Shown here: in pieces, positions 41,231 to 58,373 of the stretch | Numbering within the stretch: the stretch's first letter is position 1 | Layout: every line of letters starts with the position of its first letter | Assembly: GCF_963667045.1 (NCBI RefSeq) | Contig: NZ_OY762934.1 | Span: 4,160,501 to 4,224,500, forward strand | Length of the DNA: 64,000 nt | Direction of reading: 5' to 3' | From: an uncultured Cohaesibacter sp. | Lineage (GTDB): Bacteria; Pseudomonadota; Alphaproteobacteria; Rhizobiales; Cohaesibacteraceae | The notes under the pieces: model-generated | Seen by the model: the letters and a program-made list of their open reading frames with translations, nothing else | Databases searched by the model: none | What the model was told of the DNA's origin: nothing | Program-made: the position numbers and the translations under genes

Positions 41231-42163
41231 TTACATTGCGCCGTATTTGTAGAGGCGTGGTTCTGCCGGAACCAGTTCGTCCTCATCGATCTCGGCCACG
41301 CAGCGAACCATGGAGCCGTCGCCCATGTGCCAGCGGATCGGCAGAGCAAAGAAGCGGAACTTCTTGTTCTTGACCTTGTCGAGGTCGCCGCCGAGGTTTT
41401 CAACGCCAACGATGCCATTGCCGAGCAGATATTTGTGGCAAGGTTCCCAGGTGCCGCAGTTGCCTGTTGCTTCCAGCTCGCCGAATTTCTCGTCATATTT
41501 TGCCTGGCCATGCACCTTGATGTAGGTGGCGCGGTCAAATTCTGCATAGGCTTCTTCACCGAATTCGTCGATGAATTCCTCAACGATGGTGCGTCCGGAA
41601 TAGCCCGGCAGGTTCATGCAGGTGCCGTTGTTGCCCATGGAGGTGTGCAGCGGATGGTCGAGGGCCTGCTGGTCGAGAGCGACCACTTTGACCTTGTGTT
41701 TGACGAACCATTTGCCAGCGTCGATGCCGGTGCCCAGGGAGTAGTGATAGTAATCCTTGGAGTCGTCGAACTTGCGGTGCATGCCGGTGTTGAGGCAGAC
41801 AACCATGCCTTCCAGTTCTTCCGGCTTCATGCCTGCGCGTTCTACAGCAGCTTCAATGTCTTCCGGCATGATCAGCTTCCAGCGATCAACGCGGATGTCG
41901 AGGCAGACTGCATCGCCGCAATAGGCGTCGACCGGCAGTTCGTGGGTGTAGAGGGCGCGGCTGCCGTCAAACATGCGTTCCATGACGTGGCGCGGTGCGT
42001 CGCAGTGGGTGCCGGTGTGCATGGTGCATTTGATCGACTGGGTCAGAACGCCAGCCTTTGCCATGCTGTGCATCGGGGCGATTTCCGGTTTGGAGAAGTA
42101 TGGCCACAGAGGCATATCACCGAAAAACGGATGGCTCAGATCTACGAAGACTTTTTTTCCCAT
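41231..42163 (-). CDS. Cyclase-family metal-dependent hydrolase (kynurenine formamidase-like)
   Basis: A 310-residue protein of the cyclase family. The metal-binding motif HTGTHCDAPRH (HxGTHxDxPxH type) is near residue 50, and VDLSHPFFGDMPLWP near the N-terminus is the typical opening. Known members hydrolyse N-formylkynurenine, isatin or other cyclic amides. The start at 42163 (MGKKVFVDL) is chosen because the GGAG 6 bases before it acts as its ribosome binding site; ATGs at 42178/42175 overlap that site. It is monocistronic, on the same strand as the hydantoinase operon. An amide-opening role in that pathway is possible. Confidence 0.82.
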   Translation of the reverse strand: MGKKVFVDLSHPFFGDMPLWPYFSKPEIAPMHSMAKAGVLTQSIKCTMHTGTHCDAPRHVMERMFDGSRALYTHELPVDAYCGDAVCLDIRVDRWKLIMPEDIEAAVERAGMKPEELEGMVVCLNTGMHRKFDDSKDYYHYSLGTGIDAGKWFVKHKVKVVALDQQALDHPLHTSMGNNGTCMNLPGYSGRTIVEEFIDEFGEEAYAEFDRATYIKVHGQAKYDEKFGELEATGNCGTWEPCHKYLLGNGIVGVENLGGDLDKVKNKKFRFFALPIRWHMGDGSMVRCVAEIDEDELVPAEPRLYKYGAM

Positions 42164-42959
42164 TTTTAACTCCATCATTATGGCTCTCTGCTCGAGAGCA
42201 TTCTTGACGATTACGCGCCCTTCAGATGTGCATCTGAAGCTCGAAGCGACGCGGGCATTAGTCTGGGGACGTGAGCAAAAGCCAAAGAGACATGACTGGA
42301 TGTCTCATCAACAATCCGCACCATGCATCAGACCAACTGACGCAGGAAACGTTCGGTGACAGGTGACCGGGTCGTCCATCAACACCATGTTCCGGCTCGG
42401 AAAATGGCCTTGAGCGCGACAGAAATCACCTTGGGTTCCTCCACTTCGACCGACCTGTCACAATCGGCCTATCCCACTTTGCGAGATAGTCGTATCGTAT
42501 CGTGGTTAAAACTGCAATAGGGGAAAGCCCTAAGATGCTCGCATGGTGGTACACTTCTTGAAATTCTGAACAGCTAAAGGAAATGTCGCCGGTTTGCTGG
42601 CAGATGAACAGCGGGGTGGAGGGCTTATGATCGGCTGATTTCTGCGCTCTGGCGTGTGGTTTCAGAGCTTGCGAGACCTGTTTACTGGATGTTGAAATCC
42701 CGGCAGCAAGCGAGCAGATGGCGGCTCGAGAGGGGCTGTCGCGGCTCTTTTGGGTGCGAAAATCCGTCTGGCTGTACCACCGGATATTGGAGCAGGGGCA
42801 AGAGCTGTATCGCATGCGAGGTATGGCGAGGGCTGACGCGCGCAAGGCATGGCTGGGGGGCGGCGAGGCATCCCTGGCGCTATCGGGGCGCTGGGCGCGG
42901 AAAGGGCGGCCATGCCAAAATAAAAGGGTGGCAGGAAAGCCTGCCACCTTGTTGAGTGT
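42164..42959. other. Long gap between cyclase and hydantoinase genes
   Basis: The 796 bases hold the hydantoinase terminator (42915-42950) and, at 42489-42503, the tandem CGTATCGTATCGTGG. Frames in 42426-42955 on both strands are biased and unlike known proteins, so I read them as chance. The cyclase promoter must lie here. Confidence 0.45.
42915..42950 (-). terminator. Terminator after the hydantoinase gene
   Basis: GGTGGCAGG (42927-42935) and CCTGCCACC (42940-42948) form a perfect stem with a 4-base loop. On the minus strand it is followed by CTTTTATTTT, 10 bases past the hydantoinase stop. Confidence 0.87.
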
Positions 42960-44375
42960 CTAGCTGACGAAGGCGGAATAGCCGCGCTTGAGGAAGTGTC
43001 CGTCACCGACCGAGCCGGTGATCTTGCCTTCCTCGCAAGCGATCTTGCCGCGTACCAGTGTCATCACCGGCCAGCCCTTGACCTTGTGCCCCTCATAGGG
43101 GGTGTAGTCTGCGGCGTGATGCATGCCAGCTTGGGTGATGGTTTCCTCCCGGTTCGGATCCCACAGTACGATGTCGGCGTCAAAGCCCGGCGCGATGGAG
43201 CCCTTCTGGGGGTAGAGGCCATACATCTTGGCATGGTTGGTCGAGGTGAGGGCAACGAACTCGTTGAGCGTGATGCGGCCCTTGCCAACGCCTTCAGAAT
43301 AAAGGATCTGCATGCGGTTCTCGACGCCCGGCAATCCGTTTGGTACCCAGCGGAAGGAGGTTCTTGCCTTGCCGGACATCTTGCCTTGCGGGCCTTCATA
43401 GAAGAACGGGCAGTGATCGGAGGAGAAGGTCTGGAAGACGCCGCCGCGGATGCCTTCCCAAATGGCGTCCCAACTGTCGTGGTCGCGTGGCGGTGGCGAA
43501 CAGACGTATTTGCTGCCGCTGTCGTCCATGTTGAGGCCTTTCATGTCCTCAGCGGTGAGGGCGATATACTGAGTGCAGGTCTCGCCATAGATCTTGATGC
43601 CCTTCTGCTGGGCCCAGCGGATCTGCTCCATGGCCTCGCGGCCGGAGACGTGGACGATCATGATGGGGACATCCAGGAGCTGGGCGTGGCTGATGGCGCG
43701 GTGGGCGGCTTCCCGCTCAACGATCTGTGGGCGTGAAACGCCGTGATAATAGGGCGCGGTCTTGCCTTCTCGTTCCAGTTTCTCGGTCATGTAGCGGATG
43801 GCGTCATAGCCTTCGGCGTGGACCATGACGAGGGCCTTGCAGTCCTTGGCACAATCGAAGACTTCGAGCAGTTGGCGGTCATTGAGTACCATGTCATGAT
43901 AGGTCATGAAAACCTTGAAGGAGGTGTAGCCATCGGCCACAAGGGCGGGCAGTTCCTGACCCAGGACCTGCGGGGTCGGGTCGGTGATGATCAGGTGAAA
44001 GCCATAATCGCAATAGGCCTGTCCGCGGGCGCGAGAATGATAATCCTCGACGGTTTCCCTGAGGCCTGCGCCGCGTGGCTGCTGGGCAAAGGGAATAACC
44101 GTGGTGGTGCCACCGGCAATGGCCGAGCGGGTGCCGGTTTCAAAGCCGTCCACCATCTGCGGGGTGCCCGGTGCGGACGGCTGGGCCAGATGGACATGGC
44201 TGTCGATGCCGCCGGGCATGACCAGCAGGCCGGAGGCGTCGATTTCCTTGTCGGCGCTGCCCAGATCCTTGCCCGTTGCGACGATCACGCCACCCTTGAT
44301 GGCGATATCGGCGGAAAAGGTGTCTGCAGCCGTGACGCATGTGCCGCCACGGATCAGCAGGTCAAAATCAGCCAT
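42960..44375 (-). CDS. Dihydropyrimidinase/D-hydantoinase
   Basis: A 471-residue amidohydrolase that opens hydantoin or dihydropyrimidine rings to N-carbamoyl amino acids. The di-metal site is complete: H60 and H62 in DSHVHL, carboxylated K154 in SFKVFMTY, H186 in VMVHAEG, H242 in VHVSG and D320 in SSDHCPF. It is the last gene of a minus-strand operon led by a polyamine-type ABC importer, which may supply its substrate. The plus-strand N-carbamoyl-D-amino acid hydrolase would take its product onward. Confidence 0.88.
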   Translation of the reverse strand: MADFDLLIRGGTCVTAADTFSADIAIKGGVIVATGKDLGSADKEIDASGLLVMPGGIDSHVHLAQPSAPGTPQMVDGFETGTRSAIAGGTTTVIPFAQQPRGAGLRETVEDYHSRARGQAYCDYGFHLIITDPTPQVLGQELPALVADGYTSFKVFMTYHDMVLNDRQLLEVFDCAKDCKALVMVHAEGYDAIRYMTEKLEREGKTAPYYHGVSRPQIVEREAAHRAISHAQLLDVPIMIVHVSGREAMEQIRWAQQKGIKIYGETCTQYIALTAEDMKGLNMDDSGSKYVCSPPPRDHDSWDAIWEGIRGGVFQTFSSDHCPFFYEGPQGKMSGKARTSFRWVPNGLPGVENRMQILYSEGVGKGRITLNEFVALTSTNHAKMYGLYPQKGSIAPGFDADIVLWDPNREETITQAGMHHAADYTPYEGHKVKGWPVMTLVRGKIACEEGKITGSVGDGHFLKRGYSAFVS

Positions 44376-44393: not shown

Positions 44394-45176
44394 TTACTTC
44401 TGAGATCTCCGGCGGATGAATTCGCCAAAGCCGATCAGGGCGATGTTGGCAATGACCAGCATCAGCGCGATGGAATCCAGCGCCGGGGACACGTTGAAAC
44501 GAAAATCCGATGCGACCAGAATGGAGAGCGGCTGTTCGCGTCCGCTGAGGAAGGACGTCAGCACATATTCGGCCGACGACAGAACGAAGGCGATGAACCA
44601 TGAGGCCATCAGGCCATTCTTCATCAGCGGCAGGGTCACCCGCTTGAATGCCGAAAAATGGCTGGCGCCAAGGTCGAAGGCTGCTTCTTCCAGTCGCTTG
44701 TCGATGCGCATCAGCACCGAGGCGTTGACCAGAGTGGTGAAGGGCAGGATGACGATGGTCTGTCCGGCGATGATCGTCCAGAGGCTGCGGCCGATGCCGA
44801 GGTCCGCCAACAGGATCAACTGGGCAACCGCCAGAATGACCTTCGGAATGAGGAAGGGCATCAGCACGAAGACCAGCAGCAGAAAGCGATAGCGCATCGG
44901 GTAGCGGGTCAGTGCCAGCGCTGCCATGGCGCCCAGTATTGTCGAGAACAGGGCGGTGGGAATGGCGACAAGAAAGGTGAGCTTCAGGCCGCCGAGCAGG
45001 CGGCCATCGGTCAGGGCCTGTGTGTACCATTCGGTGGTGAAGCCTTGCAGCGGAAAGGCGATGATCTCGGAGGAATTGAAGGAGAAAATCGCGATCACGG
45101 CGATGGGCAGATACATCAGGATATAGACGACCCAGATCCAGCTGTAGGCGAGGATGGTTTGTTGGCGACTGATCAT
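44394..45176 (-). CDS. ABC importer permease, PotC type
   Basis: A 260-residue permease with about six spans and the EAA loop EEAAFDLGASHFSAFKRVTLP near residue 180, typical of spermidine/putrescine-type importers. The start at 45176 (MISRQQTIL) overlaps the PotB-type stop (ATGA). It pairs with the next permease and the ATPase and binding protein upstream. The substrate is unknown; the hydantoinase partner suggests a hydantoin or ureido compound. Confidence 0.86.
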   Translation of the reverse strand: MISRQQTILAYSWIWVVYILMYLPIAVIAIFSFNSSEIIAFPLQGFTTEWYTQALTDGRLLGGLKLTFLVAIPTALFSTILGAMAALALTRYPMRYRFLLLVFVLMPFLIPKVILAVAQLILLADLGIGRSLWTIIAGQTIVILPFTTLVNASVLMRIDKRLEEAAFDLGASHFSAFKRVTLPLMKNGLMASWFIAFVLSSAEYVLTSFLSGREQPLSILVASDFRFNVSPALDSIALMLVIANIALIGFGEFIRRRSQK

Positions 45177-46042
45177 GCTTCCCCTCCCACCAGAGCCTTG
45201 CCCAATGTCGAGCGACTGATGACGATCGCTGCAAGCGCGAAGAACAGTGCCAGAATGGCCAGCATGGTCCATGCAATGGCTGAGCCGAGCGGCCAGTCGA
45301 AGGCCGTGCCGAACAGGTCGTTGATGGCGCTGATGATGGTGATGCCGGACGCACCGCCCACCAGTTGCGGGGTGAGATAGTCGCCCACGACCATGACGAA
45401 AACCATCAGGGACCCGGCGATGAGTCCGGGCATGGTGAGCGGCAGGGTCACGCGCAGAAAGGCACTGCGAGACCCGGCTCCGAGATCCCGGGCAGCTTCC
45501 AGCAAGCGATCATCGAGCGCCTCGAAGGCCAGCCAGAGACCGATGACCATGAAAGGCAGATAGTTGTAGGCCAGAACGATATGGGTGGCGAGCGGCGAGA
45601 AGAGCAGGGCGTCGATCGGTTTGTCGACCACACCGAGCCAGATCAGCAGGCTGTTGAGAACGCCTTCGGCGCCGAGCAGAACGCGCCAGGCGAAAATGCG
45701 CACCAGATCGCCCGTATAGAGCGGCACAAGCAGCAGGGTCAGCAGCGCGGATTTGTAGATTGTCACACGCTTGGCGATGAACCATGCCACCGGATAGCCG
45801 AGGATGGCCGTAATGACGGCAATGCCTGCGCCGGAGAGGAAGGCCTTGAAAATCAGCCAGCGATAGGTACCGCTGCCGGCAATGCGCATATAGTTCCTGA
45901 AGCTTGGGTCCTTGATGATGGCCACGAAGCTGACGGAAAAGAAGGAATAGGCAAAGAGGATTGCCAGCGGCGCAATGCACAGGGCTGCGACCGCGGCGAA
46001 CACCGGAACCGAAAGCGCATTGCCGATGGTGATGCGTTTCAT
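45173..46042 (-). CDS. ABC importer permease, PotB type
   Basis: A 289-residue permease. PLYTGDLVRIFAWRVLLG and the EAA loop LLEAARDLGAGSRSAFLRVT fit PotB/PotH-type subunits. The start at 46042 (MKRITIGNA) overlaps the ATPase stop by 4 bases, and the next permease overlaps its own stop, so all three are translationally coupled. It forms half of the membrane channel. Confidence 0.86.
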   Translation of the reverse strand: MKRITIGNALSVPVFAAVAALCIAPLAILFAYSFFSVSFVAIIKDPSFRNYMRIAGSGTYRWLIFKAFLSGAGIAVITAILGYPVAWFIAKRVTIYKSALLTLLLVPLYTGDLVRIFAWRVLLGAEGVLNSLLIWLGVVDKPIDALLFSPLATHIVLAYNYLPFMVIGLWLAFEALDDRLLEAARDLGAGSRSAFLRVTLPLTMPGLIAGSLMVFVMVVGDYLTPQLVGGASGITIISAINDLFGTAFDWPLGSAIAWTMLAILALFFALAAIVISRSTLGKALVGGEA

Positions 46043-47121
46043 GGCTTTCCCGCCCCCTTTGCAGCGGTGATCCATGCGCGGTCAAGAGCAAAGGCGAGGC
46101 TGACATTGCTGCCGGCTTCCGGCGGGGTGATGTCCTGAACCATCATGTCCAGCGCTGTGCCATCGGCAAGGCTCGTTTCCACCAGCCATTCGGCCCCGCG
46201 GAATACGGTATGGGTTACCTTGGCAGGGATGCCTTCGCCGGTGGAAAGTGACATCAGTTCGGGGCGCAGCACCAGTGCCGCCTTGTCGCCGGCAGCCAGA
46301 TGGGCTGTTGCCGGTGCGGTGAAGGCGCCAACTGCCGTTTCGATGGTGGCCTTGCCTCCGGGGTCAGTGGTGGTGATCTTGCCGGCAATGAGGTTGGCCC
46401 CACCGATGAAGTCGGCCACATAGGCGCTGGCCGGATGGCGATAGATCGCTGTCGGGGTGCCCTGTTGCTCGATGGCCCCGTCATTCATGACGATGATATG
46501 GTCCGAGAGGGCGAAGGCTTCTTCCTGGTCGTGGGTGACATGCAGGAAGGTGGTGCCGAGACGCCGCTGCAGATCCTTCAGTTCGATCTGCATGTCCTTG
46601 CGCATGCGCCGGTCGAGAGCCGAGAGCGGTTCGTCGAGCAGCAGGATGCGTGGTTCGTTGGCTATGGCGCGTGCCAGTGCCACGCGCTGTTGCTGTCCGC
46701 CGGAGAGCTGGCGCGGGCGCCGGTCGGCCATGGCCTGCATCTGCACCATGGCGAGCGCGGCGTCGGCCTTGCTGGCGATCTCGTCCTTCGAGAGTTTCTT
46801 GTAGGACAGGCCGAATGCCACATTCTCGCGCACGCTCAGGTGCGGGAAGAGGGCGTAGCTCTGAAAAACGGTATTGATGGGGCGCTGGTTGGCGGGAATT
46901 CCGGCCAGCGACCCACCATCGAGTTCGATGACGCCGGAGGAGATGTCTTCAAATCCTCCGATCATCCGCAGCAGGGACGTCTTTCCGCATCCCGAGGGCC
47001 CTAGAAGTGTCACATAGGTGTTGGACTGGATCGTGAAGTCGATGCCGCGAACGGCATGCACGGGTCCATATTCTTTGTGAACCGCGATCCCCGTTAAAAG
47101 AGGAGGGGTTTTCTTGTTCAT
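46039..47121 (-). CDS. ABC importer ATPase, PotA type
   Basis: A 360-residue ATPase with Walker A LGPSGCGKTSLLR, signature LSGGQQQRVALARAI, Walker B ILLLDEPLSALD and the switch His in HVTHDQEEAF. The C-terminal TOBE-like region runs from about residue 280. This is the PotA/FbpC layout. It energises the importer with the two permeases that follow and the binding protein before it. Confidence 0.92.
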   Translation of the reverse strand: MNKKTPPLLTGIAVHKEYGPVHAVRGIDFTIQSNTYVTLLGPSGCGKTSLLRMIGGFEDISSGVIELDGGSLAGIPANQRPINTVFQSYALFPHLSVRENVAFGLSYKKLSKDEIASKADAALAMVQMQAMADRRPRQLSGGQQQRVALARAIANEPRILLLDEPLSALDRRMRKDMQIELKDLQRRLGTTFLHVTHDQEEAFALSDHIIVMNDGAIEQQGTPTAIYRHPASAYVADFIGGANLIAGKITTTDPGGKATIETAVGAFTAPATAHLAAGDKAALVLRPELMSLSTGEGIPAKVTHTVFRGAEWLVETSLADGTALDMMVQDITPPEAGSNVSLAFALDRAWITAAKGAGKP

Positions 47122-47155: not shown

Positions 47156-48238
47156 TTAGCTAGCCTTGACTTCGTTCCAGAGCGCGACCCACTCGTTGTA
47201 ACGAGGTGGGTTCTGCTTCCAGACGAAGCTGTCCATGATGCTCAGATCGCTGATGAAGATCTTGTCCTTCTGCTCATCGGAGATCAGGTCGCGGGCAGAC
47301 GAGGTGCTCTGTGCGTAAGGGCCGCCAACAGCCAGTTCCTTGCCGTAATCCGGGCCGAGCAGATAGTTGACCAGCTTGAAGACGGCATCGAGCTTTTCGC
47401 CTTCGACGCCAGCCGGAACGGCCAGCGTATCGCACCAACCGATGACACCCTGTTTCGGTTTCGCCATGCCCATGTCGAGGCCGCGAGCCTTGAGGTCATA
47501 GTAAGGTGGCACCCAGGAGAAGGCGCAGACGACTTCGCCCGAAGCGAACAGGTTGGTGAGGTCGGAAATGGAGTTCCAGTAGGTGCGCAGCAGCTTCTTC
47601 TGGGCCATCAGGGCTTTCTTGACTTCAGCCAGCTGCTTGTCGTCCATAACGAACATTTCCTCGCGCGGAATGCCCAGATACATGGCGGCAATCATGATGC
47701 CTTCCAGCGCATAGTCGCGCATGGCCAGCTTGCCCTTGTATTTGTCGCCCTCGAAGAAGACGGACCAATCCGGCTCTTCGTCCATCAGGTCAGCGCGATA
47801 GACGACCGGGTTGATGCCCCAGTAGAACGGAATGCCATAGGTTTTGCCGTCCTTCTTGCCCAGCGGCGATGACTTGAAGGCGTCATAAAGCAGCTTGCCA
47901 TTGGTAACCTTGTCGAAGTCGATCGGCTGCAGCAAACCGGATTCGACGTAATATTCCACCTTGTCGAGGCCCGGAGTGATCAGGTCGACGGATTCTGCGC
48001 CACCGGCACGAAGCTTGGCGAACTGTTCGTCGTCGGTGCCGATGAAGGTTTTTGCGATGTCGATGCCAGCGTTGGCATCGAGGAATGCCTTGAGATATTC
48101 AGGCTTGGCCAGGTTTTCCCAGGTCATCCAGGAAATCTCGGTTGCCGCCAAGGCGCGGTTGATCGGAGACAGCGCACTCAATGCAGCGCCAGCAGCCACG
48201 GTCTTCAGAAGGTCGCGGCGATTGATGTGAAAAGCCAT
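47156..48238 (-). CDS. Extracellular solute-binding protein, PotD type, Tat-exported
   Basis: A 360-residue periplasmic protein. The N-terminus NRRDLLKTVAAGAALSALS is a twin-arginine signal, ending near RALA-ATE. The mature part (ISWMTWENLAKPEYLKAF, GIPFYWGINPVVYRADL) matches the spermidine/putrescine-binding fold. It is the first gene of the five-gene importer-hydantoinase operon. TGAAA/TTTCA repeats upstream may bind the RpiR protein encoded next to it. The true ligand is unknown. Confidence 0.87.
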   Translation of the reverse strand: MAFHINRRDLLKTVAAGAALSALSPINRALAATEISWMTWENLAKPEYLKAFLDANAGIDIAKTFIGTDDEQFAKLRAGGAESVDLITPGLDKVEYYVESGLLQPIDFDKVTNGKLLYDAFKSSPLGKKDGKTYGIPFYWGINPVVYRADLMDEEPDWSVFFEGDKYKGKLAMRDYALEGIMIAAMYLGIPREEMFVMDDKQLAEVKKALMAQKKLLRTYWNSISDLTNLFASGEVVCAFSWVPPYYDLKARGLDMGMAKPKQGVIGWCDTLAVPAGVEGEKLDAVFKLVNYLLGPDYGKELAVGGPYAQSTSSARDLISDEQKDKIFISDLSIMDSFVWKQNPPRYNEWVALWNEVKAS

Positions 48239-48330: not shown

Positions 48331-48368
48331 TTTTTCAAAAAAAGATCAATATGAAAAAAAAGTTTCAT
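48331..48368 (-). promoter_or_regulatory. TGAAA/TTTCA repeats before the importer operon
   Basis: TTTTTCA (48331-48337), and ATGAAA with TTTCAT as an inverted repeat 6 bases apart (48351-48368), lie in the 144-base gap before the binding-protein gene. Similar repeats occur before both RpiR genes, suggesting a shared operator. Confidence 0.45.
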
Positions 48369-48382: not shown

Positions 48383-49276
48383 CTAAGTTTTATGCATTTC
48401 CTTTCCGACCATGGGGGCTCCCAGTTGGTCCAGCTTGCTGTGCAGTTGCTCGATTTCCTTGAGGCGGTCCACGGCTTGATCCCCAAGGGATTGTGAGACG
48501 CCAGAGCAGATGTAATTGATCAGGCTCATTGGGGTGGCGTAGCTGTCAAACATCGTGTGACCCTTGCAGTGGCAGCGCAATGTCAGGGTCGCCAGTTGGG
48601 ATGTTCTCCCGGCGGTCATGTCGGTGATGAGAATGCTCGGTGCGCCTGCCTCGTGGATCGCTTCCATGACATCCCGCAGCTGGGCCGGGCGGCGGCGGAA
48701 GCCAAAAATGAGGAAGGTGTCGGTGCGGTTCATGCTGGCCAGTTCCTCGCCAAAGGACATGCCTGCACTGGGAATCAGCCGTACGTCCGGCTTGAGATTG
48801 ATCAGCAATGCGCGGGCGTAGGTGGCCAGGGCCATGGAGTTGCGAAAGCCGAGCGACCAGATTCGCGAGGCGTTTGTCAACAGGCTGATGGCCTCTTCGA
48901 GGGCGCCTGCATCGAGCATTTCGGCGGTTCGGGTGAGGTTCTGCAGGTCCTGCGCAATATGCAGACCGAAATCACCCTTGGACAGACGCTTGGTGCCTAT
49001 GCCGGTCAATTCGTAGAGGGGGGATCCCCAGTCCTCGGTCTGGCGATTGAGGATGCGGGCTTCGTTGTAGTTGGCGTAGCCAAGCCGCTTGAAGAAGCGA
49101 GCCGCAGTGGCTTTGGAAATTTGGGCCCGGTCCGCCAGTTCGCCGGCGGTGAAGCTGGCCAGATTGCTTTGCGATTCGATGACGACGTCTGCCAGTCGCC
49201 GTTCAGAGCCCGTCAACTGGTCGTAGATTTCGGAGATTCTGACGTCGATTGTCTTGGGTTTTTCTTGATCGCTCAT
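48383..49276 (-). CDS. RpiR-family regulator 1
   Basis: A 297-residue regulator. The N-terminal helix-turn-helix region holds LTGSERRLADVVIESQSNLA and GELADRAQISKATAARFFKR. A C-terminal SIS domain follows from about residue 120 (RIWSLGFRNSMALATYARAL, FLIFGFRRRP). RpiR regulators usually sense phosphosugars, but here all neighbours handle amides and amino acids. It lies between the importer operon and a second RpiR gene, with TGAAAA/TTTTCA repeats just upstream of its start. Confidence 0.87.
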   Translation of the reverse strand: MSDQEKPKTIDVRISEIYDQLTGSERRLADVVIESQSNLASFTAGELADRAQISKATAARFFKRLGYANYNEARILNRQTEDWGSPLYELTGIGTKRLSKGDFGLHIAQDLQNLTRTAEMLDAGALEEAISLLTNASRIWSLGFRNSMALATYARALLINLKPDVRLIPSAGMSFGEELASMNRTDTFLIFGFRRRPAQLRDVMEAIHEAGAPSILITDMTAGRTSQLATLTLRCHCKGHTMFDSYATPMSLINYICSGVSQSLGDQAVDRLKEIEQLHSKLDQLGAPMVGKEMHKT

Positions 49277-50381: not shown

Positions 50382-50411
50382 AGTAGCCTCAGAGGTCTTG
50401 TTTGCAGCGAC

Positions 50412-50465: not shown

Positions 50466-50502
50466 GTCTTGGTTGCGAGGCAGGCTTTTCTGGAGTGTTG
50501 GC

Positions 50503-51023: not shown

Positions 51024-52304
51024 ATGATCTGGGTTGCTGTTACCTTTTTCGGCCTGTTGGCGATTGGCATGCCGGTCGGTTTCGTTCTCGGGGTCGCCGG
51101 GATGGTGGGAATCATGGATATGGGCGGCGGCAAGTTCCTGTCGATGGCGCCGGATCGCATGTTCGCCGGGCTTGACCTGTTTCCGTTCCTCGCCATGCCC
51201 TTCTTCATTCTTGCTGGCGAAATCATGAACCGCACCGGCATCACCAACAACCTGGTGAAATTCGCCGACTCGCTGGTTGGCTGGATGCGCGGTGGCATGG
51301 CCCATTCCAACATGGTGGCCTCGGTGATGTTTGCCGGGCTCACCGGTGCGGCCACCGCAGACGCTGCCGCCTTCGGCAACACGCTGGTGCCGGCCATGGT
51401 CAAGCAGGGCTATTCCAAGCCCTTCGCCTGTGCGGTCACGGCTGCCGGATCGATCATCGGGCCAACCATTCCGCCCTCGACATTGGCGGTCATCTATGGC
51501 TCCATCATGGGGGTGTCGATTGCCGGTCTGTTCGCTGCGGGCATCCTGCCGGGGTTGCTCATCTGCCTCATCTGCATGGCGGTGATTGCGGCGCTTGGTG
51601 AAAAGCTCAACCTGCCGAAGTCCAGGAAGCGCCCAAGCCTGATGGCGATTTTCAGCGCCTTCCGCGAGAGCCTTCTGGCACTGGTTCTGCCGGTGTTCAT
51701 TCTTGGCTCGATCCTGGGGGGCATAGCCACCCCGACCGAGGCTGCCTCCATCGCTGTGGCCTATGCCCTGTTCGTCGGTGGCGTGATCTATCGGGCGCTC
51801 ACCTTCCGTGATCTCTATGAAATGATGGTCCGGACGACGCGCATTACCGGCATCATCTTCCTGATCATTGCGTCTGCCTCGATCCTTGGCTGGTGGCTCA
51901 CCTTCAACCAGATCCCGCAGGCCATTGCCACCTTCTTCCTTTCGGTCAGCGACAATCCCAACGTGATTATCGGCATGATCGTTCTCCTGTTGCTGTTCAT
52001 CGGCCTGTTCATGGACATCAACGCAACCCTCATCATCTTGGCTCCGGTTCTTGTGCCCCTGACCCAGAGCATCGGGATGAACCCGGTTCATGCAGGGATC
52101 ATGATCATCCTTGCGCTGAATATTTCACTCATGACGCCTCCAGTCGGTGCGTGCCTGTTCGTGCTCGCATCGGTCACCAAAGAAAAAATAGAAAATATCA
52201 CCAAGTCCCTTTGGCCCTTCCTCCTGGCTGAGATTGCGATTTTGTTGCTGGTCGCATTTTGGGAGGACATGACACTGTTCGTGCCAAGGCTGCTGGGGTT
52301 CTAA
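51024..52304 (+). CDS. TRAP transporter large permease (DctM)
   Basis: A 426-residue protein with about 12 spans. Family motifs include PFFILAGEIMNRTGIT, SMLFAGLTGAATADAAAFG-like VMFAGLTGAATADAAAF, and IIGPTIPPSTLAVIYG. It couples sodium flow to uptake of a carboxylate captured by DctP. It lies between dctQ and dctP in the usual complete TRAP set. Confidence 0.91.
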   Translation: MIWVAVTFFGLLAIGMPVGFVLGVAGMVGIMDMGGGKFLSMAPDRMFAGLDLFPFLAMPFFILAGEIMNRTGITNNLVKFADSLVGWMRGGMAHSNMVASVMFAGLTGAATADAAAFGNTLVPAMVKQGYSKPFACAVTAAGSIIGPTIPPSTLAVIYGSIMGVSIAGLFAAGILPGLLICLICMAVIAALGEKLNLPKSRKRPSLMAIFSAFRESLLALVLPVFILGSILGGIATPTEAASIAVAYALFVGGVIYRALTFRDLYEMMVRTTRITGIIFLIIASASILGWWLTFNQIPQAIATFFLSVSDNPNVIIGMIVLLLLFIGLFMDINATLIILAPVLVPLTQSIGMNPVHAGIMIILALNISLMTPPVGACLFVLASVTKEKIENITKSLWPFLLAEIAILLLVAFWEDMTLFVPRLLGF

Positions 52305-52339: not shown

Positions 52340-53380
52340 ATGAAACTCATGAATTCAGTCAAGTCAGTGATGTTGGGAGCCATCGCCGCAGGTGTGATGG
52401 CAGGAACAGCCTTTGCTGCTGATGTTACCATTCGTATCGGTCACCTGAACCCGGCCGATCCGACCGAAAGTCATTCCGGTGCCATGACCGCTGTGTTCAA
52501 GTCACTGGTGGAAACCGCCTCCAACGGTGAAATCGAAGTCAAGCTCTTCCCGAACGGCCAGCTCGGCAAGGACAACGAAGTGATCCAGCAGGTGCGCGAC
52601 GGCATCGTGGAATCCTGCATTTCATCCGCCGGTGGCGTGGCTCAGCATTATCCGCTGGTTGGCGTGTTCGACATTCCGTTTGCCTTCCCGAACATCTATG
52701 TCTCCGACAAGGTGATGTCGCTGGATAGCGATTTCGGCAAGAAATTCGCAGCCGACATGGACGCCAAGACTGGCCTGCACACCCTTGCCATGCTGGATAG
52801 CGGTGGTTTCTTCGCTTTCACCAACTCCAAACGCCCGATCAAGACCGTGGCTGACATGGAAGGTCTGCGCCTTCGCACCATGACCCTGCCGACCCATCAG
52901 GCAATGGTCAACTCGCTGGGCGCGAAGGCGACCCCGCTGCCATGGGCTGAAGTTTACACTGCCCTTCAGACCGGCGTTGCAGATGGCGAAATGAACCCGA
53001 TTCCGGTCATCGCCTTCGCCAAGTTTGACGAAGTGCAGAAATATCTCTCCATCACCAACCATGTCATCACCCCGTATGTCTGGTTCATGAATGGCGATTT
53101 CTACAACTCCCTGAAACCGGAACACAAAGCCATCGTTGACTGGGCTTCTGAAGTGGCCACCAACGCCGGTCGTGGCATCTCCCGCATCATCGAGGCATCC
53201 GACAAGGGTCTGCCGAAGCTGGCAGAAAAGATGGAAATCAACTCGGTCAGCCCGGAAGAAGCTGCCAAGTTTGCCGCCATCGCACAGCCTGCGGTTCGCA
53301 CTCTGATCGAAGAGAAATTCGGTGCAGAAGGCACGGACATGCTGAACGCGCTGATGGCTGACATCGACAAATACAAATAG
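52340..53380 (+). CDS. TRAP transporter substrate-binding protein (DctP)
   Basis: A 346-residue periplasmic protein. The start at 52340 yields a Sec signal ending GTAFA-ADV. Family features are FPNGQLGKDNEVIQQVRDG, GLRLRTMTLPTHQAMVNSLG with the substrate-carboxylate Arg, and ATPLPWAEVYTALQTGVADG. Neighbouring lyase and carbamoylase genes suggest an amino acid or N-carbamoyl amino acid rather than C4-dicarboxylates. A terminator follows at 53396-53425. Confidence 0.9.
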   Translation: MKLMNSVKSVMLGAIAAGVMAGTAFAADVTIRIGHLNPADPTESHSGAMTAVFKSLVETASNGEIEVKLFPNGQLGKDNEVIQQVRDGIVESCISSAGGVAQHYPLVGVFDIPFAFPNIYVSDKVMSLDSDFGKKFAADMDAKTGLHTLAMLDSGGFFAFTNSKRPIKTVADMEGLRLRTMTLPTHQAMVNSLGAKATPLPWAEVYTALQTGVADGEMNPIPVIAFAKFDEVQKYLSITNHVITPYVWFMNGDFYNSLKPEHKAIVDWASEVATNAGRGISRIIEASDKGLPKLAEKMEINSVSPEEAAKFAAIAQPAVRTLIEEKFGAEGTDMLNALMADIDKYK

Positions 53381-53529: not shown

Positions 53530-54726
53530 ATGATGAAGATTTCTCTTGTAAGAGCGTCCCGGAATCCAGAGGCGTCCCGGACGCTTCCTTCTCTTCCTTT
53601 TGAAAAGGACGGCATGGATATCGCCCGCAGCACGATCAGCAGCTGGCCGGGCTATGCGCCGTCGCCGATCCGGGAGCTTTCCGATCTCGCAGCCGAGCTT
53701 GATCTTGGCAAGATCTACTTCAAGGATGAATCCGTCCGCTTCGGCCTTGGCAGTTTCAAGCCGCTAGGCGGTGCCTTTGCCGTCAGCCGGGCGCTGAGCC
53801 GCTATCTGTCGGCGGAGACGGGGGAAGTGGAGCCTGATCTCGCATCTCCTCAGATGAAGGCGCGGGTGGTCAACCTGACAGTGACCGCCGCGACCGATGG
53901 CAACCATGGTCGTTCGGTGGCGTGGGGTGCGCGGATGTTCGGCTGTCGCTGCGTGATCTTCGTCTGTTCTTCGGTCACCCGACAGCGCAAGGATGCCATT
54001 GCCTCTTACGGCGCGGAGATCCGGGAAGTGGATGGCTCGTTCGATGATGCCGTCCGTCTGGCAGCAAAGACCGCCAAGGATGAAGGCTGGTTTGTCATTC
54101 CCGATACGTCCGACGGGGAAACCGTCGAGGCACCACGCGATGTGACGCAAGGCTACATGCTGCTGGTGGACGAGGCGCTGGACCAGCTCAGGGACGAGCC
54201 GCCGATCACCCATCTGTTCCTGCAGGCCGGGGTCGGGGGCATGGCGTCCGCCAGCGCGGCCCGTTTCTGGCAGGCCTACGGCGAGGAGCGGCCCGTCACG
54301 ACCATCGTCGAGCCGGAGCAGTGTGCCTGCTGGTACGAGAGCCTTGTGGCTGGTGAGCCTGTCGCCGTGACCGGCGACATCGACTCGGCCATGGCCGGCC
54401 TCTCCTGCGGCGAGGTTTCGCTCATTGCCTGGCCGGTTCTCAGAACCGGCGCCGATTTCATGATGACCCTCAGCGACGAAGCCGTGCCGGTCATGATGCG
54501 TTATCTCGCCGGGAAGGGACAGGATGCCCGCCCGGTGATTGCAGGGGAAACCGGGATATCCGGGCTTGCGGGACTTGTGGCCGCAGCTCAGGACGCAACC
54601 CTGCGCAAGGAATTGGGCCTTGGACCAGACAGCCGTGTCTTCGTGGTCAACAGCGAAGGGGACACGGATCCAGAGGCTTACAAGACAATTGTTGGCAAAT
54701 CAGCAAGTGAGGTACTTGAACAATGA
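53530..54726 (+). CDS. 2,3-diaminopropionate ammonia-lyase
   Basis: A 398-residue fold-type II PLP enzyme, the length of E. coli YgeX. It converts D- or L-2,3-diaminopropionate to pyruvate and two ammonia. K77 in GLGSFKPLGG is the PLP lysine. D123 in ATDGNHGRSVAWG and D192 in PDTSDGE correspond to the two catalytic acids of the family, and AGVGGMASA is the phosphate loop. The start at 53530 fits this length. The next gene overlaps its stop. It would form pyruvate from whatever the carbamoylases release. Confidence 0.9.
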   Translation: MMKISLVRASRNPEASRTLPSLPFEKDGMDIARSTISSWPGYAPSPIRELSDLAAELDLGKIYFKDESVRFGLGSFKPLGGAFAVSRALSRYLSAETGEVEPDLASPQMKARVVNLTVTAATDGNHGRSVAWGARMFGCRCVIFVCSSVTRQRKDAIASYGAEIREVDGSFDDAVRLAAKTAKDEGWFVIPDTSDGETVEAPRDVTQGYMLLVDEALDQLRDEPPITHLFLQAGVGGMASASAARFWQAYGEERPVTTIVEPEQCACWYESLVAGEPVAVTGDIDSAMAGLSCGEVSLIAWPVLRTGADFMMTLSDEAVPVMMRYLAGKGQDARPVIAGETGISGLAGLVAAAQDATLRKELGLGPDSRVFVVNSEGDTDPEAYKTIVGKSASEVLEQ

Positions 54727-55970
54727 CACACCCGGCTTTTAGCAATCTGCGGATCGACATCGACCGCTTGCTCGGGCGCCTTATGGCTTTGGGGCAGGAT
54801 GGCGCTCTTGAGGGGGGTGGCGTATGTCGGCTGGCGCTCAGCGACACCGACAAGCTCGGTCGCGACCGGGTCGTGGGCTGGATGAAGGACTTGGGGCTTA
54901 CGGTCACCGTCGACAAGATCGGCAACCTGAAAGGCATTCTGCCCGGCCGCGAGGATCTGCCGCCAGTGATGATCGGTTCGCATATCGATACCGTGGCCAC
55001 GGGTGGTCTTTATGATGGCAACCTGGGTGTGCTGGCGGGTCTGGAAGTGATTTCCGTGCTCAAGGACAGCGGCTATGTTCCGTTGCGGCCGATCGTGGTT
55101 GGTGCCTTTACCAACGAGGAAGGTTCGCGCTTTGCGCCCGACATGCTGGGCAGTGCGGTTGATCGTGGTTCGCTGCCGCTGGACGAGGCGTTGGCCGTCA
55201 AGGATGCCGACGGATTCGTGGTTGGCGAAGAGCTTGCCCGTATCGGCTATGCCGGTGAGGCCGAGCCGGGGCAGATCACGCCCTATTGCTTCTTTGAAAT
55301 GCATGTTGAGCAGGGCCCCGTTCTGGAAGAAGAGGGGGATCTTATCGGCGCAGTGACCGGCGTGCAGGGCATCAGCTGGACCGAATATGTGGTTGAGGGT
55401 GTCTCCAACCATGCCGGTACGACCCCGATGCGTCTGCGTCACGATGCTGGGTTTGCCGCCGCAAGCATCTCAGTCGCGGCCCGCAAGGTAGCCGGAGAGG
55501 TCGGTGATGGTCAGGTCGCTACCGTTGGTGTTACCGAGCTTGACCCCAATCTGGTCAACGTGATTGCCCGCAAGGCTCGCCTGACTGTGGACCTGCGCCA
55601 TATTGACGAGCAGAAGCTGCAGCAGGCCGAGAAGATGCTGGCCGCCGAGATCGAATGCATCTGCCGGGCCGAAGGCGTTTCCGTCACGGCTCGCAAGCTG
55701 GCCCGTTTCGAGCCGGTTATGTTCAATGAATCTATGGTCGATCTTATCGCCAAGACCGCCAGGGAACAGGGCTATGCCGTGCGCCGCATGCCTTCTGGCG
55801 CCGGCCACGACGCCCAGATGTTCGCCCCCGATTGTCCAACGGCGATGGTCTTTGTGCCCTCTAGGGGCGGCATCAGCCACAATATCGAAGAATACACAGC
55901 ACCCGAAGAACTGCAGGCAGGTGCCAATGTGCTGCTGCAGGCGGTTCTGACCAAAGCTGAAGAAAGATGA
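54723..55970 (+). CDS. M20-family amidase/hydantoinase-carbamoylase type hydrolase
   Basis: A 415-residue di-zinc enzyme of the N-carbamoyl-L-amino acid hydrolase/allantoate amidohydrolase/beta-ureidopropionase group. Metal ligands are visible: H87 in GSHIDTVATGG, D98 in LYDGNLG, E132/E133 in FTNEEGSRF and the His in FEMHVEQGPVLE. VSNHAGTTPMRLRHDAG is the dimerisation/substrate region and SGAGHDAQMFA the last ligand. It overlaps the lyase stop by 4 bases. It likely removes a carbamoyl group from an L-ureido acid, possibly making diaminopropionate. Confidence 0.88.
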   Translation: MTHPAFSNLRIDIDRLLGRLMALGQDGALEGGGVCRLALSDTDKLGRDRVVGWMKDLGLTVTVDKIGNLKGILPGREDLPPVMIGSHIDTVATGGLYDGNLGVLAGLEVISVLKDSGYVPLRPIVVGAFTNEEGSRFAPDMLGSAVDRGSLPLDEALAVKDADGFVVGEELARIGYAGEAEPGQITPYCFFEMHVEQGPVLEEEGDLIGAVTGVQGISWTEYVVEGVSNHAGTTPMRLRHDAGFAAASISVAARKVAGEVGDGQVATVGVTELDPNLVNVIARKARLTVDLRHIDEQKLQQAEKMLAAEIECICRAEGVSVTARKLARFEPVMFNESMVDLIAKTAREQGYAVRRMPSGAGHDAQMFAPDCPTAMVFVPSRGGISHNIEEYTAPEELQAGANVLLQAVLTKAEER

Positions 55971-55980: not shown

Positions 55981-56904
55981 ATGTCACGTCCATTGAAAGT
56001 TGCTGCCGCCCAGTTGGGGCCGATTGCGCGCGAGGAAACGCGTAGCGAGGTTGTTGCCCGTTGCATCAAGCTGATGGAAAAGGCCCACACGCTGGGAGCC
56101 GACCTCATCGTCTTCCCTGAACTCGCACTGACCACCTTCTTCCCGCGGTGGTATTTCGAGGATCAGGCTGATGTTGATACCTTCTTCGAAACGGAAATGC
56201 CGAGCGCCGAGACTCAGCCACTGTTTGACGCAGCCCGGAAATACCAGATGGGTTTCTATCTGGGCTACGCCGAGCTGACCGTTGAAGAGGGCAAAGTGCG
56301 CCATTTCAACACCACCATCATTGTCGACAAGACCGGCGAGATCGCAGGCAAATATCGCAAGGTGCATCTGCCCGGCCATAGCGAATATGAAGACTGGCGG
56401 CCGTTCCAGCATCTGGAACGTCGCTATTTCGAGACCGGAAACCTCGGTTTTCAGACCTTCGATGCGCTCGGTGGCAAGCTCGGCATGTGCATCTGCAACG
56501 ATCGCCGCTGGCCGGAAACCTTCCGTGTGCTCGGTCTGCGCGGGGCCGAACTGATCATGATCGGCTACAATACGCCGGTTCACTATCCGCAGGCACCGGA
56601 ACATGACCATCTGCAGAACTTCCATAACGAGCTATCGATGCAGGCTGGCGCCTATCAGAACGGCTCCTGGGTTGTCGGCGTTGCCAAGGCTGGCAAGGAA
56701 GAGGGCTGCGACCTGATCGGCGGTTCCTGCATCATCGATCCGACCGGCCAGATCGTGGCGCAGGCCAAGACACTGGGAGACGAGGTCGTCTTCTTTGAAT
56801 GCGATCTGGATCGTTGCGATGAAATCCGCAAGAACGTCTTCAACTTCCAGCGTTACCGTGAACCCGAAAACTACACCCCGATAACCGAACCGAAAAAATC
56901 ATGA
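55981..56904 (+). CDS. N-carbamoyl-D-amino acid hydrolase
   Basis: A 307-residue nitrilase-superfamily amidase, close in length and sequence to the Agrobacterium D-carbamoylase. The catalytic triad falls at the positions I recall for that enzyme: E47 in IVFPELALTTFFPRW, K127 in GKYRKVHLPGH and C172 in CICNDRRWPET. It splits N-carbamoyl-D-amino acids to D-amino acid, CO2 and ammonia. Together with the minus-strand hydantoinase it completes a D-hydantoin pathway. It lies 10 bases after the M20 gene and overlaps the next gene. Confidence 0.92.
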   Translation: MSRPLKVAAAQLGPIAREETRSEVVARCIKLMEKAHTLGADLIVFPELALTTFFPRWYFEDQADVDTFFETEMPSAETQPLFDAARKYQMGFYLGYAELTVEEGKVRHFNTTIIVDKTGEIAGKYRKVHLPGHSEYEDWRPFQHLERRYFETGNLGFQTFDALGGKLGMCICNDRRWPETFRVLGLRGAELIMIGYNTPVHYPQAPEHDHLQNFHNELSMQAGAYQNGSWVVGVAKAGKEEGCDLIGGSCIIDPTGQIVAQAKTLGDEVVFFECDLDRCDEIRKNVFNFQRYREPENYTPITEPKKS

Positions 56905-58373
56905 CATTTGTGTTCAAACCTGAAGTCGCTGACGAGAAAGCCCTCAAGAAGGTTGCCGAGTCTTTTCGCCGCTACGATATTCGCCTGCCGCTGTTTGCCG
57001 AGCTGATCGATCCGGTTACGCATCTGACGGATATGGCAGCAGATCTGGCCACGGTTGATCCGGATGCCGCGGATTCACGCAACCTGTTCCGTGTGCACTG
57101 GCATAATGACGCCGAGCGCAAGGGACTGGTCGAGGTGCCCGAGCATATCGTGCTGCCCAAGGAGCTGACCGGCGTTGACGCCAAGATCGTCATCGCTCTT
57201 GGCAACCGCTTCCCGATGATCAAGGCCCACAAGGTGCTGCCTGCCTATGCCTGCCTCGTGCAGCGGCTGGTTTCGGGCAATTTCGATCCCTATTCCCAGC
57301 GTGCCGTATGGCCATCCACCGGCAACTACTGCCGCGGTGGCGTCGCCATCTCGCGCATTCTGGAATGTCACGGGGTTGCGGTTCTGCCAGAAGGTATGAG
57401 CCAGGAACGCTTCAACTGGCTGGAAAGCTGGACGCTCAGCAATGATGACATCATCCGCACGCCGGGCTGCGAGAGCAACGTCAAGGAAATCTATGACGCC
57501 TGCAACAAGCTCAGCCAGGATCCGGACAATGTGATTCTCAATCAGTTCGCCGAGTTCGGCAACTATGCGGTTCACCGCGCTGTGACCGGTGCGGCGCTTG
57601 GCCGGATCTTCGATGCGCTCAATGGTGAGGGTAACCTCACCATGGCCGGGTTCGTCTCTGCGTCCGGTTCTTCGGGTACGCTGGCTGCCGGTGATCACCT
57701 CAAGCAGCATTATGGTGCAGACATCGCCGTGGTCGAGGCGCTGGAATGCCCGACCCTGCTTTACAACGGCTATGGCGACCACAACATTCAGGGCATCGGC
57801 GACAAGCATGTGCCGCTCATCCATAACGTGATGAACTCCGACTATGTCATCGGTCTGTCAGAGGCAGGCTCGGACATGCTGAATCTGGTGTTCAACAGGC
57901 CGGACGGGCAGGATTACCTCAAGGACTATCGCGGCGTCGAGCCCGAGCTGATCGAACGCCTGTCGGCCCTCGGGCTGTCTTCGATTGCCAACATCCTTGG
58001 CGCGATCAAGCTGGCCAAATACCAGAAGCTCGGGGCCAATGACGTTGTCATGACCGTGGCAACCGACGGCGCCGAGATGTACAGCACCGAACAGCCGAAA
58101 GCCTTGCAGAAATATTTCGGCAACCGCTTCGACAAGACCCTTGCGGCGCAGGCTTTCGGGGCGCAGGTCGTCGGTGCATCGGTGGATCACGTGCTGGAGC
58201 TCACCCGCATCGATCGCGAACGCATCTTCAACCTGGGTTACTATACCTGGGTCGAGCAGCAGGGCGTCGAATTGAAAGATTTCGACAGCCGTCGGGATCA
58301 GGCCTTCTGGGATCAGCTGGTGGATGACCTGCCAGCTTGGGACGGTCTGATCACGTCCTTCATGGCTGGATAA
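56901..58373 (+). CDS. PLP-dependent fold-type II enzyme of unknown specificity
   Basis: A 490-residue protein of the cysteine synthase/tryptophan synthase-beta superfamily, clearly longer than the usual 300-400 residues. The likely PLP lysine is K111 in MIKAHKVLPAYACLV. The substrate loop is STGN (139-142) in WPSTGNYCRGGVAI, and a serine-rich phosphate loop is SGSSGT (255-260). About 100 N-terminal residues precede the core. It overlaps the carbamoylase stop by 4 bases. It may eliminate, desulfurate or racemise a D- or diamino acid; I cannot name it. Confidence 0.75.
   Translation: MTFVFKPEVADEKALKKVAESFRRYDIRLPLFAELIDPVTHLTDMAADLATVDPDAADSRNLFRVHWHNDAERKGLVEVPEHIVLPKELTGVDAKIVIALGNRFPMIKAHKVLPAYACLVQRLVSGNFDPYSQRAVWPSTGNYCRGGVAISRILECHGVAVLPEGMSQERFNWLESWTLSNDDIIRTPGCESNVKEIYDACNKLSQDPDNVILNQFAEFGNYAVHRAVTGAALGRIFDALNGEGNLTMAGFVSASGSSGTLAAGDHLKQHYGADIAVVEALECPTLLYNGYGDHNIQGIGDKHVPLIHNVMNSDYVIGLSEAGSDMLNLVFNRPDGQDYLKDYRGVEPELIERLSALGLSSIANILGAIKLAKYQKLGANDVVMTVATDGAEMYSTEQPKALQKYFGNRFDKTLAAQAFGAQVVGASVDHVLELTRIDRERIFNLGYYTWVEQQGVELKDFDSRRDQAFWDQLVDDLPAWDGLITSFMAG

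Follow-up and report, generated by a model that had tools for sequence, protein, structure and literature searches.

A candidate RpiR-controlled catabolic module for ureido-bearing 2,3-diaminopropionate compounds in an uncultured Cohaesibacter

The 64,000-nucleotide stretch analysed here (the window; positions 4,160,501 to 4,224,500 of contig NZ_OY762934.1 of an uncultured Cohaesibacter sp.) lies within a host genome that is a single contig of 5.24 Mb, and it carries two divergent gene units (Table 1). The minus-strand unit has the order rpiR1, ATP-binding cassette (ABC) binding protein, ATPase, two permeases, D-hydantoinase and PF04199 hydrolase. The plus-strand unit has the order DctQMP of a tripartite ATP-independent periplasmic (TRAP) importer, diaminopropionate ammonia-lyase (DAL), M20 hydrolase, N-carbamoyl-D-amino-acid amidohydrolase (D-carbamoylase) and a pyridoxal-phosphate (PLP) enzyme that we call plp490, with rpiR2 divergent to it. 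On balance, we lean towards reading the two units as one RpiR-controlled catabolic module for a ureido-bearing 2,3-diaminopropionate skeleton, that is, a lower half of the reductive urate pathway that is supplied by uptake. According to the passages of PMC12507026 and PMC12990295 drawn on here, that pathway is described as anaerobic, its enzymes were assigned only recently, and it runs from urate through yanthine, ureidomethyl-hydantoin (UMH), 2,3-diureidopropionate, albizziin (or its isomer) and diaminopropionate to pyruvate, with the ureido groups removed by YgeW or UacY and by YgeY.

In the proposed route, the ABC importer would take up a 5-substituted hydantoin, most likely UMH, which the D-hydantoinase would open to 2,3-diureidopropionate, and the TRAP importer could bring in open ureido acids directly. 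The D-carbamoylase would then hydrolyse the 2-ureido group to give D-albizziin and the M20 enzyme the 3-ureido group to give 2,3-diaminopropionate, so that the two hydrolases would fill the roles of YgeW/UacY and YgeY, and DAL would convert 2,3-diaminopropionate to pyruvate and two ammonia. plp490 may be a second PLP enzyme at the diaminopropionate or albizziin stage, acting by beta-elimination or on the other enantiomer. The substrate, the order of the steps, the role of plp490, the specificities of the importers and the binding of the regulators are what we infer. A D-carbamoylase fits this scheme because the R configuration proposed for the ureido intermediates would make the bacterial albizziin D; the order in which the ureido groups are lost, and the stereochemistry, are left open in the part of the commentary drawn on (PMC12990295).

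Results

The locus carries the annotated genes, with catalytic residues kept in DAL and the D-carbamoylase

The evidence observed in the DNA consists of gene content, families, catalytic residues, conserved linkage and shared dyads. The cyclase-type gene, hydantoinase, M20 enzyme, D-carbamoylase, DAL, PLP protein and two importers named in an initial annotation of the window were each recovered by profile or PDB matches, and the two RpiR genes are indeed paralogues, mutually 37% identical by blastp with both domains in each. DAL exceeds the cut-offs of NF006058 and TIGR01747, as expected of a YgeX-type DAL, falls short of the stricter YgeX model TIGR03528 (319.7 of 532) and is 38% identical to YgeX (blastp). 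The listed open reading frame (ORF) starts too early, and the ATG given in Table 1 yields the length found in several genus relatives. The catalytic residues of YgeX, which we take to be K77, D120 and D189, are kept in the aligned window DAL and in 19 of 20 aligned relatives, six of them from the genus; L204, the remaining one, is truncated and has no K77 column.

The hydantoinase matches the D-hydantoinase 1NFG (E 4.5e-132), carries the metal-site motifs, is 39% identical to E. coli HyuA (blastp) and, being above the TIGR02033 cut-off, provides the HyuA-type D-hydantoinase that the reductive urate pathway requires. A second gene in the host genome is of the dihydropyrimidinase type and shares 42% identity with this one. 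The weak PDB matches of the PF04199 protein are metal-dependent hydrolases and kynurenine formamidases, and the M20 enzyme matches PDB amidases of the hydantoinase/carbamoylase family, to which it belongs. The D-carbamoylase aligns over its full length with 1FO6 and keeps the NDRRWPE motif and the whole Glu-Lys-Cys triad (presumably E47, K127 and C172), as had been claimed for it.

In the literature searched, the term "N-carbamoyl-D-amino acid" never stood alongside "diaminopropionate" or "uric acid" in one paper, and the passages covered, including those of PMC10107544, PMC7431475 and PMC11503299, hold no citable statement on the natural role of hydantoinases or D-carbamoylases.

The two units are linked within the genus and share putative operators

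The initial annotation had proposed a search for conserved neighbourhoods, and this search bore out the grouping. The core of DAL, M20, D-carbamoylase and plp490 genes (dal-m20-cnh-plp) occurs in 8 of 18 genus genomes, seven of the eight with TRAP genes, and in a ninth genome (G011) the part read shows m20 and plp alone. A metagenome-assembled genome (MAG) of the Kiloniellaceae (L041) holds the whole plus operon including TRAP. Because the core is kept in eight genomes and the entire operon recurs in this MAG, the grouping is not a matter of chance. A hydantoinase of the window type (>1000 bits) is found in six of the 18 genomes, all of which have the plus operon, always adjacent (6/8 genomes with the core, 0/10 without); the remaining genus matches, at 345-361 bits, are a dihydropyrimidinase-type gene of 41-44% identity. 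Within the genus, then, the hydantoinase unit occurs only with the plus unit, and not vice versa. In the five relatives read further the ABC-hydantoinase order is unchanged, and the PF04199 gene is present in four of them; the stretch covered for G015, the fifth, did not show it.

The window contains three copies of the pattern TGAWA-N6-TWTCA, which fall within 48352-50433. Shuffled sequences lead one to expect 0.09, and none of 100 shuffles reached three; the pattern was drawn up after viewing these promoters, which makes the shuffle test post hoc and the relatives the better test. In each of the five relatives with both units, three dyads occupy the matching places, and the spacer letters of several differ. 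G007, G016, G101 and the Kiloniellaceae MAG likewise carry the one that lies between rpiR2 and the TRAP genes; L050 and L284 yielded none. The whole host genome has 23 such dyads versus six of the reversed pattern. Because the dyad is conserved at three promoters across both units, these putative operators support the view that RpiR-type regulators control the two strands together, and such sharing would speak against independent expression of the units.

The same data bear on whether two unrelated neighbours are at hand, a plus operon for ureido-diaminopropionate and a minus operon for some other hydantoin or cyclic amide that would be processed through the PF04199 hydrolase. The plus operon does stand without the minus operon in G007, G016 and the stretch read of L041, and hydantoinase and DAL occur together in none of the loci compared outside the genus. 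However, the restriction of the window-type hydantoinase to genomes with the plus operon and the conserved operator-like dyad common to both units make this very unlikely in our view.

DAL and D-carbamoylase are neighbours across Alphaproteobacteria

A sample of 385 Alphaproteobacteria genomes was searched for D-carbamoylase (E≤1e-75) and DAL (E≤1e-50). D-carbamoylase is present in 67 genomes (100 copies), DAL in 84 and both in 42, so that DAL occurs in 42 of the 67 genomes with D-carbamoylase versus 42 of the 318 without it (Fisher p 3.8e-16, ignoring kinship). The starts of the two genes lie ≤3.1 kb apart in 12 genomes from ten families, the window included, where 0.43 would be expected as computed for an 11-kb limit and a 4.3-Mb genome. 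Thirty-five of the 99 other D-carbamoylase copies were read, namely the 20 best matches and 15 selected by hand, and two more were then chosen for a known adjacent DAL. These 37 loci outside the genus include DAL in ten (the two chosen for it among them) and a full-length hydantoinase in six (47-56% identity; a seventh match reaches only 27%). Three loci (L285, L287 and L288) were added for their SsnA-profile match, and L285 and L287 are two further D-carbamoylase loci with hydantoinase. An apparent hydantoinase beside DAL in G104 (L293) was dropped, as the blastp hint spanned only 62 residues. In a D-carbamoylase tree of 56 rows, one clade (0.96) takes in the six hydantoinase-linked enzymes and another (0.77) the eight DAL-linked enzymes of the survey together with the Acidimicrobiia enzymes; both clades also contain enzymes with neither neighbour.

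These results can be set against general scavenging of hydantoins and N-carbamoyl-D-amino acids by a hydantoinase and D- and L-carbamoylases of broad specificity, with DAL a coincidental neighbour acting on D-serine or diaminopropionate. Hydantoinase plus D-carbamoylase is a classical pairing, and the six loci of 37 together with L285 and L287 conform to it. DAL, however, adjoins D-carbamoylase far above chance in ten families and keeps the YgeX catalytic residues, and the tree, with modest support and the reservation about both clades given above, parts DAL-linked from hydantoinase-linked enzymes. We therefore consider scavenging of this broad kind quite improbable.

Two of the DAL/D-carbamoylase loci, L208 (5468-7177) and L215 (12210-13289), have a urease alpha gene or a gene with a D-serine-dehydratase domain nearby, in keeping with urea-type nitrogen and D-amino acids.

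plp490 belongs to a widespread family of fold-type-II PLP enzymes

The initial annotation had left the PLP protein unassigned, and by curated models it stays so: plp490 (490 residues) lies under the Pfam PALP cut-off (32.2 vs 35), reaches no NCBIfam cut-off, scores 69.5 of 351 and 23.7 of 394 against the CysK/CysM models TIGR01139 and TIGR01138, and has no match to DAL profiles at E≤0.001. Its AlphaFold2 model (mean pLDDT 91.1, pTM 0.92, from a 33-row alignment) matched cysteine synthase CysK, beta-cyanoalanine synthase and cystathionine beta-synthase in Foldseek with TM-scores by target of ~0.8 (best match E 3.4e-16, 0.80), as expected of a fold-type-II PLP core. K111, a candidate Schiff-base lysine, and an STGN loop are invariant in the 33 rows. 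With this cysteine-synthase-type fold, the invariant lysine and loop and the lack of a fitting curated family, plp490 is likely to act on a 3-substituted alanine by beta-elimination or beta-replacement; that this alanine would be diaminopropionate or albizziin is suggested by the neighbouring genes.

Relatives of plp490 match at least 588 stretches in one collection, of which the 80 best-scoring were kept, a non-random set in which many contigs end nearby and in which the simple gene callers used missed some genes. In a set of 86 rows (the 80 loci, the window and five more from a genome search), DAL or a second PALP protein, f1, is nearby in 44 (f1 in 30, DAL in 14); f1 adjoins plp490 in 25 of the 80 loci by clustering or 30 by tblastn. 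We rejected f1 as a DAL, since the one member examined, that of L089 (11471-12550), lacks D120 and D189 and no DAL model matches it at E≤1e-20. The family is not bound to urate alone, as scanned representatives of other loci have CoA-transferases, F420-linked genes or M20/M24 peptidase-family genes. In L063 (11523-17393), L066 and L086, from Hyphomicrobiales and other alphaproteobacterial MAGs, plp490 relatives lie beside CoA-transferase, luciferase-family and radical-SAM/CofH-type genes, which suggests another substrate there. In the marine alphaproteobacterial loci L091 and L097, peptidase-family genes of the M20 and M24 types come after plp490, and a 316-residue ORF with a DAL match lies before plp490, one ORF away; this arrangement recalls hydroxyectoine-type clusters.

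Relatives of the locus genes adjoin urate-type genes in other phyla

Urate-type neighbours (SsnA-, Se-type xanthine dehydrogenase (XDH)-, YgfK- or YgeW-like) were called by identity thresholds in the stretch covered, and they occur near plp490 in 10 of the best 80 loci: L050 (Rhodovulum sp. PH10), L062 (Acidobacteria), L067 (Armatimonadota), L072 (Thermoanaerobaculia), L073 and L113 (Chloroflexi), and L070, L084, L089 and L107 (Acidimicrobiia or their families). Among NCBIfam models, each of the eight SsnA-like proteins scanned matched SsnA best. The XDH of L050 and the YgeW of L062 exceed their cut-offs, and the XDH of L089 and L084 fall below (758 and 805 of 830).

Relatives of the locus M20 (54-60% identical) and D-carbamoylase (55-60%) lie near each other and an XDH gene, which has an SsnA-like gene adjacent or ~6 kb off, in four Acidimicrobiia genomes, those of L089, L271 (G457), L272 (G458) and G452 (read as L107 and L270). 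In L089, one strand reads m20, YgfK-like, D-carbamoylase, Se-XDH-like, SsnA-like, plp490 and f1. In G457 the order is m20, D-carbamoylase, Se-XDH-like, SsnA-like, luciferase-family reductase and amidase; G458 has the same first four genes, followed by unscanned genes of similar length, and the plp490-f1 pairs of these two genomes (L087, L101) lie outside the stretch with the m20-D-carbamoylase operon. G452 has m20, D-carbamoylase and Se-XDH-like genes and, ~5 kb on, past three opposite-strand genes, luciferase-family reductase, SsnA-like and DAL genes. The reductase adjoins the SsnA-like gene in both L270 and L271, and a luciferase-family reductase beside SsnA is described for Chloroflexota in the part of PMC12507026 drawn on. 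An M20 relative is also beside XDH in L084, and in L050 one lies beside an rpiR1 relative (41%) and XDH, adjoining a protein with a partial match to PF07969, the family given for UacY (PMC12507026, likewise in part); this protein has no NCBIfam match at E≤1e-40.

L067 combines XDH-, SsnA-, YgeY-, HyuA-, YgeW- and YqeA-like genes with plp490 and f1, and lacks YgeX. More broadly, DAL (E≤1e-20) was found in 3 of 15 genomes searched; among the ten with plp490 near urate genes it was found only in G452, and at that threshold neither in the other nine assemblies nor in G457 and G458. Since most genomes with urate-linked plp490 gave no DAL match, it is simplest to suppose that the diaminopropionate step in these loci falls to plp490, by itself or together with f1. 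A wider proposal is tentative and, to us, rather doubtful: that plp490, in many cases with f1, replaces YgeX in the urate catabolism of several phyla, acting on 2,3-diaminopropionate or albizziin, that DAL-linked D-carbamoylases are a third, UacY-like hydrolytic way to remove the 2-ureido group, with 2,3-diureidopropionate as natural substrate, and that such Alphaproteobacteria scavenge intermediates.

The upper half of the pathway and the source of the substrate

A complete purine route was not found in the host, where neither SsnA nor YgfK has a match above cut-off. An XDH-type gene is present in the host genome outside the window, so that the earlier statement that xanthine dehydrogenase is missing does not extend to the genome. 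The host has two molybdenum-cofactor enzymes; a 240-residue piece of one best matches xdhB, and the other exceeds the cut-off of an aldehyde-oxidoreductase model. A molybdenum aldehyde-oxidoreductase cluster of the host lies in L133 (1547-12079; G000:C1 ~1.017-1.027 Mb), with NF045668, a TrsS-type radical SAM protein, a DVU_1551 NTP transferase and others above cut-off and an XdhC-like factor below. None of the locus genes is YgeW- or UacY-like (the host genome was not searched for either).

Because the host has no SsnA or YgfK match above cut-off, the substrate of a urate-type module would have to be imported. As two importers adjoin the enzymes and no upper half turned up, the most natural assumption is that the host takes up intermediates which other organisms release. 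Its main rival has the same chemistry with another source, namely albizziin or N-carbamoyl-diaminopropionate compounds from plants, peptides or antibiotics rather than purine fragments. The missing SsnA and YgfK would agree with this as well, as would the alphaproteobacterial DAL/D-carbamoylase pairs without SsnA nearby, some of which lie beside oligopeptide-type ABC importer genes. However, albizziin needs no hydantoinase, and relatives of both carbamoylases adjoin SsnA-like and XDH genes, so we regard this other source as unlikely. The initial annotation had offered a ureido-hydantoin, an albizziin-like compound or a purine fragment as starting points for a route to 2,3-diaminopropionate; the route is strengthened by the urate-type neighbours in Acidimicrobiia and the DAL-D-carbamoylase linkage, while the choice among substrates is one that sequence cannot fix.

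SsnA above cut-off occurs in only 2 of the 385 Alphaproteobacteria, G133 (L290, 558-4451) and G345 (L231). As true SsnA genes near a system of this kind, both were rejected, the stretches read having no relatives of plp490, DAL, M20 or D-carbamoylase; in both genomes SsnA has a YgfK-like neighbour (25-27%) and DAL lies elsewhere. Weaker SsnA-profile matches on the same contig as D-carbamoylase (G340, G418, G442) were closest to the 8-oxoguanine-deaminase query (25-28%) and were also set aside.

Several results weigh against a urate-derived module. The best SsnA score in the host genome is 41.8 bits against a cut-off of 455.5, and among the YgfK matches listed there none exceeds the cut-off or begins before profile position 424 (UacX and the F420 reductase were not searched). 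Hydantoinase and DAL occur together in none of the 37 outside loci and are seen only in six genomes of this genus, and none of those 37 has SsnA or YgfK relatives. The M20 enzyme had to be rejected as a YgeY relative: it has no blastp match to E. coli YgeY at E≤1e-3, the likeness is at the superfamily level only, and the YgeY of the urate pathway is thus not provided by this gene (the rest of the host genome was not searched). The resemblance to ygeX/ygeY/hyuA seen earlier stands for DAL and the hydantoinase and does not go beyond the superfamily for the M20 enzyme. In the part of G101 that was read, TRAP-dal-m20-cnh stands without plp490. The window's branch of the plp490 tree has no urate-linked member and all ten urate-linked ones are in the other main branch, for which reason the role of plp490 may differ between branches; 70 of the 80 plp490 loci have no urate-type gene in the stretch covered. 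Of the 12 genomes in which plp490 and an SsnA-like gene both occur, only 4 carry D-carbamoylase (6 of the 15 searched), the eight SsnA-like proteins are under the cut-offs (PRK07203, 242-283 of 444; TIGR03314, 224-268 of 455.5), and most urate-linked genomes are MAGs, in which each absence is weak evidence.

Other features of the region

A 173-residue ORF at 42426-42947 was not accepted as a gene, and Rfam gave no match in the window at the gathering threshold. Adjoining the plus operon on the minus strand (58441-62333) is an amino-sugar set with no visible tie to the ureido-acid module. It comprises nagA (TIGR00221 above cut-off), a NagB-II-like gene under cut-off and, identified by visual inspection, a CutC-like gene and a ROK-type kinase.

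Table 1. Features of the two units, in window coordinates.
Feature	Position	Strand	Basis
PF04199 "cyclase"-family hydrolase, final minus-unit gene	41231..42178	-	Pfam PF04199 111.2 bits (cut-off 23.1)
D-hydantoinase/dihydropyrimidinase	42960..44375	-	NF009941 699.7 bits (cut-off 647); TIGR02033 540.8 (cut-off 393)
ABC permease 2, Pot-type	44394..45272	-	ORF and blastp similarity to permease 1 (no Pfam scan)
ABC permease 1, PotB-like	45173..46075	-	PF00528; NF007044 under cut-off
ABC ATPase, PotA-like	46039..47121	-	PF00005, PF08402
ABC substrate-binding protein, PotD-like	47156..48238	-	PF13416 97.7 bits; NF007048 under cut-off
Operator-like dyad TGAAA-N6-TTTCA ahead of minus unit	48352..48367		Kept in five genus relatives, spacer letters altered
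RpiR-family regulator 1 (rpiR1)	48383..49276	-	PF01418 and PF01380
Operator-like dyad TGAAA-N6-TTTCA ahead of rpiR1	49297..49312		Pattern search and genus relatives
RpiR-family regulator 2 (rpiR2)	49533..50438	-	PF01418 and PF01380
Operator-like dyad TGAAAC-N4-GTATCA, rpiR2 start/ahead of dctQ	50418..50433		Also in L141, L142, L197 and L041/L274 between rpiR2 and TRAP
TRAP small permease DctQ	50449..51021	+	PF04290
TRAP large permease DctM	51024..52304	+	PF06808; TIGR00786 above cut-off
TRAP solute-binding protein DctP	52340..53380 (ORF opens 52259; likely ATG 52340)	+	PF03480; TIGR00787 above cut-off
DAL, 398 residues	53530..54726 (ORF opens 53380; likely ATG 53530)	+	NF006058 431 bits (cut-off 276)
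M20 carbamoylase/amidohydrolase, proposed 3-ureido hydrolase	54723..55970	+	TIGR01879 408.6 (cut-off 204)
D-carbamoylase, proposed 2-ureido hydrolase	55981..56904	+	PDB 1FO6 E 6.9e-127
plp490, PLP fold-type-II enzyme, cysteine-synthase-like core with N- and C-terminal extensions	56901..58373	+	AlphaFold2, Foldseek

Discussion

If the proposed module is real, the lower half of the urate pathway would be a free-standing unit with importers and other enzymes, and UMH, diureidopropionate and albizziin would pass between organisms. One branch of the D-carbamoylases used in industry would thereby gain a natural substrate, and the PLP family, with its at least 588 matched stretches, a testable function; the reading also bears on the order and stereochemistry of ureido removal.

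Among known systems, the reductive urate pathway (xdhD-ygfK-ssnA-hyuA-ygeW/uacY-ygeY-ygeX, as given in the passages of PMC12507026 and PMC12990295 drawn on) shares with the locus a D-hydantoinase, DAL and, as proposed here, two ureido removals and pyruvate as the end product. It differs in that SsnA and YgfK were not found in the host, a CN-hydrolase D-carbamoylase stands in place of YgeW/UacY and a hydantoinase/carbamoylase-family M20 enzyme in place of YgeY, and the locus adds plp490, two importers and RpiR genes. The hyu systems for hydantoin utilisation likewise have a D-hydantoinase and a D-carbamoylase, here with the full-length 1FO6 match, whereas the locus couples them to DAL, plp490 and TRAP genes, and its D-carbamoylase falls in the DAL- and urate-linked clade. 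Reductive pyrimidine degradation (Pyd) also uses a cyclic amidohydrolase followed by a ureido-acid hydrolase, but the proposed product of the locus is a diamino acid cleaved by DAL, and the host has a separate dihydropyrimidinase-type gene (the 42% relative). Finally, plp490 resembles the cysteine synthase/cystathionine beta-synthase family in its fold-type-II PLP core, candidate K111 and substrate loop, and departs from it in its length, its extra N- and C-terminal parts, its scores below the cut-off of every curated model and its DAL or f1 neighbours, where present.

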